A stretch of DNA of 64,000 nucleotides, from contig NZ_CP012719.1 of assembly GCF_001697145.1 (NCBI RefSeq), positions 282,501 through 346,500 of the forward strand, given 5' to 3'. Shown one piece after another: positions 29,536 to 35,233 of the stretch. How positions within the stretch are numbered: the stretch's first letter is position 1; each line of letters opens with the position of its first letter. The notes beneath the pieces were generated by a model. The model had not been told where the DNA came from. It saw only the letters and a program-made list of their open reading frames with translations, and made no database searches. Made by a program: the position numbers and the translations under genes. The DNA comes from Streptococcus anginosus (GTDB taxonomy: Bacteria > Bacillota > Bacilli > Lactobacillales > Streptococcaceae).

Positions 29536-29564
29536 TTGCATTTTATTTTTTCTTATGCTATAAT
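29536..29564 (+). promoter_or_regulatory. promoter of rimP-nusA-infB operon
   Basis: TTGCAT (29536-29541), 17 bp, TATAAT (29559-29564) with an extended TGC. The start point is expected near 29571. Confidence 0.8.
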
Positions 29565-29584
29565 ACAAGTAATGAATATGAAAG

Positions 29585-29610
29585 AGAGGCGAGGAAGTAT
29601 CTTCGCCTCT
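29585..29610 (+). promoter_or_regulatory. 5' leader hairpin upstream of rimP
   Basis: AGAGGCGA (29585-29592) pairs perfectly with TCGCCTCT (29603-29610) around a 10-nt loop, about 15 nt into the transcript and just before the rimP ribosome site. There is no T-run, so it is more likely an RNA-stability or translation element than a terminator. Confidence 0.6.
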
Positions 29611-29633
29611 TATCTGTGAGGAGGTGTAGTCTT

Positions 29634-30104
29634 ATCGCAACGATTGTAGAATTGGTAAAAGAGGTTGTCGAGCCAGTCATCCAAGAGCCGTATGAATTAG
29701 TGAATATTGAGTATGGTAAGATGGGGAGCGACCATGTTCTCAGTATTTTTGTAGATAAGCCGGGAGGGATTACCGTAAATGATACGGCAGATTTGACGGA
29801 CATCATCAGTCCGCTTTTGGACACGATTAAGCCGGATCCTTTTCCTGAGCAGTATTTCCTTGAGGTGACGAGCCCAGGGTTGGAACGTCCGCTGAAAACG
29901 AAAGAACAACTAGCAGCTGCAGTTGGGGAATATATCCATGTTAGTCTGTATCAAGCACTTGATAAAAGTAAAGTCTTTGAAGGGACACTGCTTTCTTTCG
30001 AGGAAGATCATTTAACAATGGAATATATGGATAAGACTCGTAAGAAAGTTGTTCAAATTCCTTACCAGCTAGTATCCAAAGCAAGATTAGCAGTCAAATT
30101 TTAG
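29634..30104 (+). CDS. rimP: ribosome maturation factor RimP
   Basis: Needed for 30S subunit assembly. The body (about 156 aa) is normal: [34 protein letters not shown] and [13 protein letters not shown] are family hallmarks. The start is odd. The strong GAGGAGGTG (29618-29626) is followed at good spacing only by ATC (29634-29636). The nearest in-frame GTG (29616) overlaps the Shine-Dalgarno itself, and the next in-frame TTG (29652) is 27 nt away and would trim a conserved helix. I therefore place the start at ATC, with reservation. The first gene of the NusA/IF2 operon. Confidence 0.85.
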
Positions 30105-30157
30105 CAAGAATATAATAAAGAAAGGATTGCTTTTGTTTCCACAAAAGCTGAAAAAAC

Positions 30158-31351
30158 ATGAGTAAAGAAATGCTAGAGGCCTTCCGTATTTTGGAAGAAG
30201 ACAAAGGGATCAAAAAAGAAGATATTATCGAAGCGGTGACGGAGTCACTTCGTTCGGCTTATCGTCGTCGCTATGGTCAAGCAGATAGTGCAGCCATTGA
30301 ATTCAACGAAAAAACAGGAGATTTTCGTGTTTATACCGTTCGTGAAGTGGTAGACGAAGTTTTTGATAGCCGTTTAGAAATCAGTTTAAAAGATGCTCTT
30401 GCTATTAGCTCGGCTTATGAACTTGGTGATAAAATAAAATTTGAAGAGGCACCAACTGAATTTGGACGGGTAGCAGCTCAGTCTGCTAAGCAAACGATTA
30501 TGGAAAAAATGCGCAAGCAGACACGCGCAATCACTTACAATAAGTATAAAGAACATGAAAATGAAATCATGTCAGGAACAGTCGAGCGCTTTGACAATCG
30601 TTTTATCTATGTCAATCTAGGTAGCATTGAAGCACAGTTGTCGAAGCAAGACCAGATTCCTGGTGAAGTATTTGCTTCTCATGACCGCATCGAAGTCTTT
30701 GTCTATAAGGTAGAAGACAATCCTCGCGGTGTCAATGTTTTTGTCAGCCGCAGCCATCCAGAAATGATTAAACGCTTAATGGAGCAGGAAATTCCAGAAG
30801 TTTATGACGGAACAGTTGAAATCATGAGTGTTTCTCGTGAAGCAGGTGATCGGACTAAGGTTGCTGTACGCAGTCACAATCCCAATGTAGATGCAATCGG
30901 TACAATTGTTGGTCGTGGTGGTGCAAATATTAAGAAAATTACCAGCAAATTTCATCCGGCTAAATATGATGCCAAATCTGGCCGTATGATTCCTGTAGAG
31001 GAAAATATTGATGTCATTGAGTGGGTGGCAGATCCTGCAGAATTTATCTACAATGCGATTGCTCCTGCAGAAGTCGATCAAGTTATCTTTGATAGTGAGG
31101 ATAGCAAGCATGCTCTTGTTGTTGTACCAGATAATAAGCTATCACTTGCTATTGGGCGTCGAGGGCAAAATGTGCGCTTAGCAGCTCATTTGACAGGTTA
31201 TAGAATTGATATCAAATCTGCAAGTGAATTTGAAGCTATGGAAGAAGCAGGTGAGCTTGGTGGATTTGCTGAAGAAGCAGATGAATTTGCAACAATTGAA
31301 AGTCCTGTGGAAACAGAATTTTTAGAAAGTGAAGTTGAAGCAGAAGACTAA
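30158..31351 (+). CDS. nusA: transcription elongation/termination factor NusA
   Basis: 397 aa, the short Gram-positive form without C-terminal acidic repeats. An N-terminal RNA polymerase-binding domain (1-125) is followed by S1 (about 135-200; SGTVERFDNRFIYVNLG) and two KH domains (GTIVGRGGANIKKI near 247-260; SLAIGRRGQNVRLAAHLTGYRIDI near 328-351) and an acidic tail. It modulates pausing, termination and antitermination. Confidence 0.96.
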   Translation: MSKEMLEAFRILEEDKGIKKEDIIEAVTESLRSAYRRRYGQADSAAIEFNEKTGDFRVYTVREVVDEVFDSRLEISLKDALAISSAYELGDKIKFEEAPTEFGRVAAQSAKQTIMEKMRKQTRAITYNKYKEHENEIMSGTVERFDNRFIYVNLGSIEAQLSKQDQIPGEVFASHDRIEVFVYKVEDNPRGVNVFVSRSHPEMIKRLMEQEIPEVYDGTVEIMSVSREAGDRTKVAVRSHNPNVDAIGTIVGRGGANIKKITSKFHPAKYDAKSGRMIPVEENIDVIEWVADPAEFIYNAIAPAEVDQVIFDSEDSKHALVVVPDNKLSLAIGRRGQNVRLAAHLTGYRIDIKSASEFEAMEEAGELGGFAEEADEFATIESPVETEFLESEVEAED

Positions 31352-31361
31352 GGAGGGGGAA

Positions 31362-31658
31362 ATGGCAAAAACAAGAAAAATCCCTTTACGAAAATCAGTA
31401 GTTTCTAATGAAGTTATTGACAAGCGTGATTTGCTTCGGATTGTCAAAAATAAAGAAGGCCAAATTTTTATTGACCCGACAGGAAAGGCCAATGGACGAG
31501 GAGCTTATATCAAGCTTGATAATGAAGAAGCGCTTCAAGCTAAGCAAAAACGAGTCTTTAATCGCAGTTTCAATATGGAAGTGGAAGACGATTTTTACGA
31601 TGAGCTGATTGCTTATGTGGATCACAAGGTCAAAAGAAGAGAGTTAGGTCTTGAATAA
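31362..31658 (+). CDS. ylxR: YlxR / RnpM family RNA-binding protein
   Basis: 98 aa from ATG 31362, with AAGGAGGGGG directly upstream. The conserved motif PTGKANGRGAYI is near 44-55. Members bind RNA and, in Bacillus, the RNase P RNA. It is always found between nusA and the L7Ae-like gene. The 3' end overlaps the next gene by 8 bp. Confidence 0.9.
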   Translation: MAKTRKIPLRKSVVSNEVIDKRDLLRIVKNKEGQIFIDPTGKANGRGAYIKLDNEEALQAKQKRVFNRSFNMEVEDDFYDELIAYVDHKVKRRELGLE

Positions 31659-31950
31659 GCAAAAACTAGCAAATTTACTTGGCTTAGCACAACGAGCAGG
31701 TCGCATCATATCGGGTGAAGAATTGGTTGTTAAGGCAATACAAGATAAGAAAGCAAAGTTAGTCTTTTTAGCCAATGATGCTGCTCCAAATTTGACCAAG
31801 AAAATTACTGATAAAAGTCATTATTACAAAGTAGAAGTATCAACCGTGTTTTCAACACTGGAATTAAGCACCGCAGTAGGCAAGGCAAGAAAAGTGCTTG
31901 CCATCACTGATGCTGGATTTACAAAGAAAATGAGGTCTCTTATGGAATAG
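31651..31950 (+). CDS. ylxQ: YlxQ, L7Ae-family kink-turn RNA-binding protein
   Basis: 99 aa starting at TTG 31651 inside the ylxR 3' end, probably by coupling. It has the L7Ae/L30e signature [22 protein letters not shown] (near 8-29) and [11 protein letters not shown]. Family members bind kink-turn RNA. The cellular role of this small paralogue is unsettled. Sixteen bases separate it from infB. Confidence 0.9.
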
Positions 31951-31966: not shown

Positions 31967-34804
31967 TTGTCTAAAGTAAGATTGTACGAAATCGCGAAAG
32001 AACTGGGAAAAGAAAGCAAGGAAATTGTGGCGCGTGCAAAAGAGCTTGGTATTGAGGTGAAAAGTCATGCCAGCAGCGTGGAAAGTGAAATAGCAACACG
32101 TATCACAGCTAGCTTTTCTCAAGCAGCAGTTCCTAAAAAAGAAACGACTCAAAAGCCGACTCAATCGTTGCCTAAAGAGCAACCGTCAGCTTTAACGGCA
32201 GTAAAAGAAACGACCGAGGCTGAGAAGAAAGCAGAGCCGAAGGCAGTAGCTCCGAAGCAAAAGTCGGAAGTGGAAATGAAGTCGGCGCCTGCAAAACCAA
32301 AAAGTCGTAATTTTAAGGCTGAACGAGAGGCAAGAGCAAAAGAGCAAGCAGAACGACGGAATAAACAGCAAGACAATCGTCCGCAAAAACAACAAAATGG
32401 CGATAAACGAAATCGAGATGAGCGTAATCAGCGTAATAATCGAAGCAATCAAAATCGCAATGACCGAGGAAATCGCAACGAACAACGCGACAACCGCAAT
32501 CATCGAAACCAAGACAATCGTCGTCAAGAACAAAATCGTTCAAATATTGCAAATCAGAATCGCCCTCAAACAAATCAAGGACCACGCATTGATTTCAAGG
32601 CGCGTGCAGCGGCTCTGAAAGCAGAACAGAATGCCGAATATGCTCGTGGAAGTGAGGAGCGTTTCAAGCAAGCTCAAGCCGCAAAGGCAGCTCAACGTGA
32701 GCAGAAGAAACGGAAAGAACCGGTAGAAGAATTATTCAAAGCAGCAGCGCCTATCGTGGAGGCTACGAAGCCGGCTCCACAGTCTCAAGTTGCCCCTGAG
32801 GCGGTTCCAACTCCTGCAGTTGATACTCGTCGGAAAAAACAAGCTCGACCAGACAAGAAACGTGATGACTTTGATCGCGAAGAAGATGGTCCAAGAAAAC
32901 AACAAAAGAATCGAAGCAGTCAAAATCAAGTGAGAAATCAAAAGAATAGTAATTGGAATCATAACAAAAAAAATAAAAAAGGCAAGAACAATCGGAATAA
33001 CACTCCAACTCCAAAACCAGTTACAGAACGCAAGTTCCATGAATTGCCTAAAGAATTTGAATACACAGAAGGTATGACCGTTGCAGAAATTGCAAAACGG
33101 ATTAAACGTGAACCAGCCGAAATTGTCAAGAAACTCTTTATGATGGGGGTTATGGCAACGCAGAATCAATCGTTGGACGGCGATACTATTGAACTTCTGA
33201 TGGTAGATTATGGCATTGAAGCACATGCTAAAGTTGAAGTCGATAATGCAGATATCGAACGCTTCTTTGTGGATGAAGATTATCTTGATCCAGATGCTTT
33301 AGTAGAACGTCCGCCAGTTGTGACCATCATGGGACACGTTGACCATGGGAAAACAACACTTTTGGATACCTTGCGTAATTCTCGTGTTGCTACAGGTGAA
33401 GCAGGTGGGATTACACAACATATTGGTGCTTACCAGATTGAAGAAAATGGTAAGAAAATTACCTTCCTTGATACACCAGGGCATGCCGCTTTCACCTCTA
33501 TGCGGGCGCGCGGTGCTTCTGTCACAGATATTACGATTCTTGTCGTAGCAGCAGATGATGGAGTCATGCCTCAAACAATTGAAGCGATTAACCATTCAAA
33601 AGCAGCCAATGTGCCAATTATTGTAGCGATTAACAAGATTGATAAGCCAGGTGCTAATCCTGAACGTGTCATCGGTGAATTAGCTGAATATGGAGTTATG
33701 TCTACAGCATGGGGCGGTGATTCTGAATTTGTTGAAATCTCAGCTAAGTTCAACCAAAATATTGAGGAGTTGCTCGAAACAGTTCTCCTTGTAGCCGAAA
33801 TTCAAGAATTAAAAGCCGATCCAAATGTTCGCGCAATTGGTACAGTAATCGAAGCGCGCTTGGATAAAGGAAAAGGTGCAGTTGCAACCTTGCTCGTTCA
33901 ACAAGGTACTTTGAATGTGCAGGATCCAATCGTTGTCGGAAATACCTTTGGACGTGTACGTGCCATGACCAATGACCGTGGACGCCGAGTGAAAGTTGCT
34001 GGACCGTCTACACCAGTATCTATCACAGGTCTAAATGAAACACCGATGGCTGGTGATCATTTTGCAGTATATGAAGATGAAAAAGCAGCGCGTGCAGCTG
34101 GTGAAGAACGTGCAAAACGTGCTCTCATGAAGCAACGTCAAGCAACTCACCGTGTTAGTCTTGAAAATCTCTTTGATACCCTTAAAGCAGGCGAAGTCAA
34201 GTCTGTCAATGTTATTATCAAAGCAGATGTGCAAGGTTCTGCCGAAGCCTTGACAGCTTCCCTTCAAAAGATTGAAGTGGAAGGTGTTAAAGTCACGATT
34301 GTTCACTCAGCAGTTGGTGCGATTAACGAATCAGATGTTACTCTTGCGGAAGCTTCCAATGCCTTTATCATTGGTTTCAATGTTCGTCCTACTCCACAAG
34401 CTCGTCAACAAGCTGAAGCGGATGACGTCGAAATGCGTCTTCACAGTATCATTTATAAAGTGATTGAAGAAGTAGAAGATGCCATGAAAGGGATGTTGGA
34501 TCCAGAATACGAAGAAAAAATTATCGGTGAAGCTGTTATCCGTGAAACCTTTAAGGTTTCTAAAGTCGGTACCATCGGCGGATTTATGGTGGTTAGCGGT
34601 AAAGTAACTCGTGATTCTAAGGTTCGTGTCATTCGTGATGGTGTTGTCATCTTTGATGGTGCCCTTGCCAGCCTTAAACATTATAAAGATGATGTGAAAG
34701 AAGTCGGAAATGGACAAGAAGGCGGTCTCATGGTTGAGAATTACAATGACATCAAAGTGGATGACATGATTGAAGCTTACATTATGGAAGAAATCGCAAA
34801 ATAA
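31967..34804 (+). CDS. infB: translation initiation factor IF-2
   Basis: 945 aa from TTG 31967, with AGAGGAGGA six bases upstream. The N-terminal region carries IF2N segments and a long Arg/Asn/Gln/Lys-rich disordered linker (about 100-350). The GTPase domain has GHVDHGKTT near 455, [15 protein letters not shown], and then domains II-IV. It brings fMet-tRNA to the 30S subunit. Upstream long minus-strand frames in the linker are artefacts of its biased composition. Confidence 0.96.
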
Positions 34805-34882: not shown

Positions 34883-35233
34883 ATGGCAAATCAATTTCGT
34901 GTGGATCGTGTGGGGATGGAAATCAAACGCGAAGTCAATGAAATTTTGCAAAAAAAAGTTCGTGATCCACGTGTTCAAGGAATTACCATTACAGATGTGC
35001 AAATGTTGGGCGACTTGTCAATGGCAAAAGTATACTACACGCTGATGAGCAACCTTGCTTCTGAGCAAGAAAAAGCTCAAATTGGTTTAGAAAAAGCCAA
35101 AGGAACGATCAAACGTGAATTGGGTCACAACTTGAAGATGTATAAAATTCCTGATTTGACATTTATCAAAGATGAATCGATTGAATATGGGAACAAAATT
35201 GATCAAATGCTCCGTGATTTAGATCAAAAATAA
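34883..35233 (+). CDS. rbfA: 30S ribosome-binding factor RbfA
   Basis: 116 aa from ATG 34883 (GAAAGGAG upstream). KH-like fold with [25 protein letters not shown] near the N-terminus. It assists late 16S rRNA 5'-end maturation and cold adaptation. Last gene of the rimP operon. Confidence 0.95.

Follow-up and report, generated by a model that had tools for sequence, protein, structure and literature searches.

A putative AUC start codon of rimP in Streptococcus anginosus and its conservation in most of the genus

Organization of the rimP locus

The stretch of DNA analysed here, referred to as the window, comprises 64,000 nucleotides from Streptococcus anginosus. It carries the operon of rimP, nusA and infB, in which the ribosome maturation factor RimP is encoded ahead of NusA and the initiation factor IF2 (Table 1). 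The two frames between nusA and infB are presumably ylxR and ylxQ, the former on account of operon order. By phmmer, residues 1-155 of the window RimP match the S. pneumoniae RimP structure 1ib8. The closest RimP among the named loci, which are the best 80 of 154 confirmed in the protein search, is that of S. intermedius, with 96% identity.

The beginning of the rimP frame is marked by an extended Shine-Dalgarno sequence (SD) and, 9 nt from its GGAGG, by an ATC codon. It was observed that no in-frame ATG, GTG or TTG of the window rimP stands at an SD-compatible distance, and ATC is the sole start-like codon there. Two canonical codons occur nearby in the rimP frame, GTG at 29616-29618 and TTG at 29652-29654 (letters and coordinates checked). 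An earlier sequence-only reading of the window had proposed that rimP starts at the ATC, and the positions that it gave for the SD, the ATC, the GTG and the TTG proved exact, in coordinates and in letters, on re-reading. Translation from the ATC would yield a RimP that begins with Met-Ala-Thr-Ile-Val.

Table 1. Features of the rimP operon in the window, with the evidence on which each is placed.
Feature	Position	Strand	Basis
Likely promoter: TTGCAT, 17-nt spacer, TATAAT after TGC (extended -10)	29536-29564	+	by eye, letters checked
12-bp leader hairpin GAGAGGCGAGGA-agta-TCTTCGCCTCTT, candidate rimP-nusA-infB attenuator	29584-29611	+	minimum free energy (MFE) fold and covariation
Extended Shine-Dalgarno sequence GAGGAGGTG	29618-29626	+	complementary to the 16S tail over 8 contiguous letters, AGGAGGTG
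ATC (AUC), probable rimP start codon	29634-29636	+	homologous-codon comparison, tree, no canonical codon with SD upstream
rimP coding sequence, ribosome maturation factor	29634-30104	+	156 codons from ATC, stop 30102-30104
nusA, ATG start	30158-31351	+	name from sequence and operon order
ylxR (presumed), ATG start	31362-31658	+	reading frame
ylxQ (presumed), TTG start	31651-31950	+	TTG in 63/80 named loci, other 17 missed by the search pattern
infB (IF2), TTG start	31967-34804	+	TTG in 72/80 named loci, other 8 missed by the search pattern
rbfA, ATG start	34883-35233	+	name from sequence and operon order

The homologous codon in Streptococcus and its relatives

Throughout the S. anginosus genome, the pattern AGGAGG-N5..9-ATC occurs at 32 sites, against 40 for the reversed control pattern; with ATG as the last codon, the same genome has 208 sites against 44. 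The combination of an SD with ATC is thus no commoner than chance in a single genome, and the case for an AUC start depends on the comparison with relatives. Among the 31 other AGGAGG-N5..9-ATC sites of this genome, no second convincing ATC start was seen. One AGGAGG-ATC site (L286, G000:C1:1141993-1143010) has a 77-codon frame, with a canonical codon absent upstream and for 114 nt downstream.

The rimP start site was read in 126 of the 227 Streptococcus genomes found. At the homologous position, 90 of the 126 have ATC, 35 have ATG and one (G177) has ATA. Similarly, ATC is present in 80/80 of the named loci, the best 80 of 154 confirmed, a set that partly overlaps the 126 genomes. The leader alignment with streptococcal rimP genes, which the sequence-only reading had put forward as a check, therefore upholds the ATC. 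A sequencing error as the source of this codon is ruled out, since ATC recurs across so many genomes and loci. At the same time, AUC is not indispensable, because ATG is used in 35 of the genomes. The homology of the codons can be followed letter by letter, with ATG GCA ACA ATT GTT at one locus (L129) and ATC GCA ACA ATT GTT at another (L111).

The distance between GGAGG and the start codon is 7-9 nt for ATC and 4-8 nt for ATG. With both sets pooled, the spacer of the ATC loci is 8 nt at 113 loci, 9 nt at 51 and 7 nt at 6, and SD complementarity runs to 6-10 letters among the ATC genomes listed. In G177 (L199), rimP is apparently ATA-started after AAAAGGGGGG, without an extended SD match, and a hairpin ends 63 nt upstream.

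For the other genera of the Streptococcaceae, 51 genomes were searched, 49 gave a match and 21 start sites were read, out of which 20 are ATG and one is TTG. In other families of the Lactobacillales, the rimP start, read by eye, is TTG in 7 of 12 genomes, ATG in 4 and GTG in 1.

Alternative start sites

Two other positions for the start have to be weighed, one on either side of the ATC. The first is an upstream in-frame GTG, namely that at 29616 in the window or, for the mitis group, one that lies within the SD, with ATC as an internal codon. The frame of the window is indeed open upstream, and among the 90 ATC genomes an in-frame GTG lies 9 nt upstream of the ATC in 37 and 18 nt upstream in 29. 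In the S. pneumoniae structure 1ib8, moreover, six residues precede the aligned IATIVEL, which means that the construct whose structure was solved began upstream of the ATC. However, the GTG of the window overlaps the SD, and at the -18 position a canonical codon (GTG in 29 genomes, ATG in 3) is found in only 32/90. Upstream in-frame canonical codons were screened for any of eight SD-like 5-mers at a distance of 4-16 nt ahead of them, and such a 5-mer is present in 0/91 ATC/ATA genomes. In 17/91, there is no canonical codon at all between the last in-frame stop and the ATC or ATA.

Some individual genomes leave still less room upstream. An in-frame TGA stands at -6 in G005, with the next canonical codon at +90, and at -9 in G089, with the next one at +72. 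The sequence between SD and ATC also differs between the mitis and the anginosus group, in length by 1 nt, so the upstream GTGs shift in and out of frame from one group to the other. Besides, if the codon were an internal isoleucine, it should have drifted like the other isoleucine columns, and in 35 genomes ATG substitutes for exactly this codon. Hence a start at the upstream GTG is improbable. G069 (L136) looks like a genome whose start is moving, in that the ATC is preceded at 6 nt by an in-frame TAG and followed two codons later by an in-frame ATG.

The second position is the TTG at 29652, or a later codon, which would give a shorter RimP. In the window genome, this TTG shares the rimP frame and follows the ATC by 18 nt. 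Against it, 75 of the ATC rows have leucine at this codon, written TTA in 59 and TTG in 14, and the spacing from the SD would be long. As the first downstream canonical codon is at least 30 nt away in 67/90 ATC genomes, there is no common downstream start. Such a start is the least probable of all the readings considered.

Initiation at AUC is what this comparison favours, and it would very probably hold for rimP: the position of the codon, its conservation and the lack of usable canonical alternatives were computed directly, and its role as the start is drawn from the comparison. It is highly likely that rimP is translated from AUC 29634 by fMet-tRNA, in S. anginosus as in most of the genus. 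The start codon of the sequence-only reading is thus most likely right, as ATC is kept across relatives and neither GTG 29616 nor TTG 29652 is conserved.

Constancy and history of the start codon

A quick maximum-likelihood tree of 147 rows was made from the rimP codons after removal of the start codon; it is the tree of one short gene and has many weak forks. The 91 rows with an isoleucine-type start comprise 90 ATC, one ATA and no ATT, which amounts to 1 change on the tree. By comparison, each of 88 conserved columns shows at least 3 changes, with a mean of 12.8, and the six isoleucine columns of rimP show 5, 7, 10, 12, 13 and 17. Inside the 90 ATC-started genes, isoleucine is written as ATT 634 times, as ATC 448 times and as ATA 38 times. 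The rimP start codon is therefore better conserved between species than its place in a reading frame would demand. The second codon is as fixed as the first, with GCA in 76 and GCT in one of the 77 alanine rows, and likewise 1 change. This equal constancy implies that it is the start region that is marked, and not the start codon alone; the start context would account for the constancy of both.

The four start states (ATC, ATG, ATA and TTG) need 7 changes on the rimP tree, of which the well-supported branches alone force only 3 for ATC. Rows with ATC are present in every one of the six basal Streptococcus branches, and ATG, which is also the state of the outgroups, makes up one clade of 31 rows and three small groups. 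Most simply, such a distribution would be read as one change from ATG to ATC near the base of the genus, followed by about four returns. It had been suggested in the sequence-only reading that a short deletion removed an ancestral TTG start. This is not supported: the ATC stands exactly where other streptococci and 20/21 genomes of other Streptococcaceae genera have their ATG, which makes a third-base substitution the simplest origin, with no need for a deletion. The origin by deletion was rejected on this ground, though TTG is common in the other Lactobacillales families.

The same data bear on whether the codon matters to the cell. AUC may be the start but nearly neutral, with the strong SD compensating for it and the codon persisting because change is rare and unimportant. 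That ATG has replaced ATC several times, once at the base of the 31-row clade, agrees with such neutrality, as does the constancy of codon 2, which may reflect the initiation region in general. It is less easily reconciled with the single change to another isoleucine-type codon in 91 rows, when conserved columns have at least three, or with the small number of changes to ATG across the genus. In addition, S. aureus reporters with AUU or AUA starts and extended SDs are described as still losing most of their output (PMC13009471). Near-neutrality is, on balance, unlikely, though it has more in its favour than a start elsewhere in the frame.

Promoter and leader hairpin

The likely rimP promoter is absent from the listing of a consensus scan, and its -35 element fits at only 3/6 positions. 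By eye, tataat or tatact is seen at the same place in many relatives. Downstream of it, the 12-bp hairpin forms part of the MFE structure of the 100-nt leader (z = -2.99), and 2 of 200 shuffled sequences were as stable.

Covariation was followed in 42 of 59 distinct Streptococcus leaders, chosen for having the hairpin nearby, which favours the result; the remaining 17 were dropped, their hairpin being further upstream, weak or absent. In these 42 leaders, 86.5% of the cells are paired, against 79.0% in shuffles and 70.8 in the best slid version, and the covariation score is 0.376 against 0.269; on both measures none of 500 shuffles was as high. Cells with double changes number 35 against 18.2 in shuffles, and on these measures the stem is kept by compensatory change. 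A weaker measure, the number of pairs with double changes, gives 8 against 5.7 (24/500 as high), and further pair types are not above the shuffles (18 against 16.5; 94/500 as high). From this alignment, RNAalifold recovered no more than half of the stem (6 of 12 pairs), a shortfall that we think comes from pyogenic-type 5' arms shifted in the MAFFT alignment.

A T run is not present after the 12-bp stem in the window; the tail is a weak, mixed ATCTGTGA, and the terminator scan made no call there. Stems of pyogenic-type leaders end in CCCTTT. Without a clear T tract and a terminator call, attenuation in the species of the window is a lead and not a result. Rfam gave 7 matches, all below the cut-offs, the best at 20.5 bits against a family gathering cut-off of 55, and a described RNA family was accordingly rejected for the leader, no match being near its gathering cut-off. 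An MFE stem around the ATC that would sequester the SD was also set aside, as the mitis-group sequence, judged by eye, seems not to keep it.

The operon has also been discussed in other streptococci. In S. agalactiae, the leader RNA of the same operon is reported to end 31 nt after the transcription start, and feedback by NusA has been proposed (PMC4448216). For S. pneumoniae, a link of the rimP operon to CiaR has been offered as speculation (PMC6560143).

Downstream genes and feedback by IF2

The presence of rimP and infB in one operon invites the proposal, made in the sequence-only reading, that an AUC at its head mediates feedback of IF2 on its own operon. Such feedback did not find support. 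The discrimination of start codons is mainly the work of IF3, which is absent from the operon. In vitro, IF3 is reported to favour Watson-Crick and G/U third-base pairs and to oppose weaker ones, including AUC with two non-cognate anticodons (PMC10158994). The 53-nt gap from rimP to nusA contains a hairpin and an SD-like GAAAGGA distinct from the SD of rimP, and infB has its own TTG start. Rho was not found in the window genome by a search in which 9/14 control genomes were positive. With this gap, and with Rho not found, weak translation of rimP has no obvious route to IF2. Feedback through polarity was rejected for the same reason, nusA having a separate SD-like sequence. On these grounds, control of the operon by IF2 through the AUC is very improbable, if slightly less so than a downstream start.

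The nusA leader has a feature of its own. Its SD-like GAAAGGA (30120-30126) and the ATG at 30158 flank a 20-nt stem-loop GCTTTTGT-ttcc-ACAAAAGC (30129-30148). With the stem-loop looped out, the gap between SD and ATG falls from 31 to 11 nt, which makes it a candidate hairpin-bridged Shine-Dalgarno. Out of 97 different rimP-nusA spacers, other genera included, 70 keep a stem of at least 7 bp between AAGGA and the nusA ATG, often with changed sequence.

Proposed role of the AUC start

The explanation that we favour, with a probability of roughly two in three, is that the AUC start and the extended SD together give a low, IF3-sensitive output that keeps RimP scarce, with possible attenuation at the leader hairpin. 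The extended SD would seat the 30S subunit on the site and partly offset a start codon that is mispaired at its third base. IF3 would oppose such a start pair, so that RimP would be made at a low rate, which a shortage of IF3 with respect to 30S subunits would increase. The probable purpose is that RimP, a 30S-assembly factor, be kept scarce relative to the NusA and IF2 of the same operon, which have their own ATG and TTG starts. Apart from this, the hairpin ahead of the SD may attenuate the transcription of all the operon's genes, in line with the NusA feedback proposed by others.

The same logic is known for infC. Read by eye, its start is ATA in 18/18 Streptococcus loci, from 19 genomes of which one gave no match; the 12 loci read from other Lactobacillales have ATA in 10, ATC in 1 and ATT in 1. 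In Streptococcus, then, a gene that is likely to respond to IF3 is present in the same genomes as the AUC-started rimP. The infC of the window genome (L241, G000:C1 near 767400) has ATA after GAGGTG, and a canonical start was not seen there. In our reading, RimP would be held at a low level, and rimP would follow the supply of IF3 jointly with infC.

A wider proposal can be built on this, which we regard as possible rather than probable. Since about the origin of Streptococcus, AUC would have been retained to sense how stringent initiation is. With too little IF3 for the 30S subunits, the AUA-started infC and the AUC-started rimP would rise together, matching assembly to the supply of IF3, NusA would attenuate the operon, and one large lineage would have lost the sensor by way of AUG.

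Significance

Among the bacterial genes described to date, AUC is a very rare natural start. No account of rimP starting at AUC was found in the literature searched, which left out most subscription papers and all supplements. A pneumococcal Ribo-RET study screened only AUG, GUG, CUG and UUG for small open reading frames, and rimP goes unmentioned in the available portions of its main text (PMC9426450). The same is true of the main texts, as far as available, of the papers on the D39V annotation (PMC6212727, PMC11701578).

Deletion of rimP has been reported as lethal in S. pneumoniae (PMC9032327). If the present reading is true, an AUC start is thus kept, over most of a genus, on a gene with a reported lethal deletion, and a 30S-assembly factor would be linked to the control of initiation stringency by IF3 for which infC is known. 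The conservation of so weak a start suggests that the cell uses AUC to keep RimP levels down and perhaps also to adjust them. Gene callers limited to AUG, GUG and UUG would misplace the N-terminus of RimP in the AUC species. The AUC and the AUG species also provide a natural contrast for what an inefficient start codon is for.

Comparison with known systems

The best-known gene of this kind is infC of E. coli, which has a start of the AUU/AUA/AUC type and is autoregulated through the discrimination exerted by IF3. Like infC, rimP has an AUH start, an SD at a usable distance, no canonical alternative seen and conservation across species. Unlike it, rimP encodes RimP and not IF3, its codon is AUC, and ATG stands at the site in 35/126 Streptococcus genomes. 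As the product is not IF3, control would be exerted by the supply of IF3 and would not be true autoregulation. In E. coli pcnB, too, an AUU start that Binns and Masters are said to have described in 2002 is reportedly inefficient and limits output; both the gene and the codon are unrelated to those of rimP.

Ribo-Ret and reporters have shown conserved AUU and AUA starts with extended SDs in S. aureus, with about 10% of the output of AUG in poor medium and, for one of them, up to 30% in rich medium (PMC13009471). As far as that report describes them, cvfC1 (AUU) and ccpN (AUA) share with rimP a conserved AUH codon, an extended SD and a fitting spacer; they differ in being other genes, mapped by Ribo-Ret and reporters, and the start of rimP is deduced from comparison only.

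The hairpin has its nearest counterpart in the leader of gbs0413-gbs0418 of S. agalactiae, where a 5'-leader hairpin of the corresponding operon likewise lies close behind the probable start of transcription (PMC4448216). In contrast to that leader, the tail of the window hairpin is weak and mixed and was not called a terminator. As for the start codon itself, the rimP of the window agrees with the AUH-start class in its spacing, its lack of a usable canonical alternative, its conservation and its extended SD.
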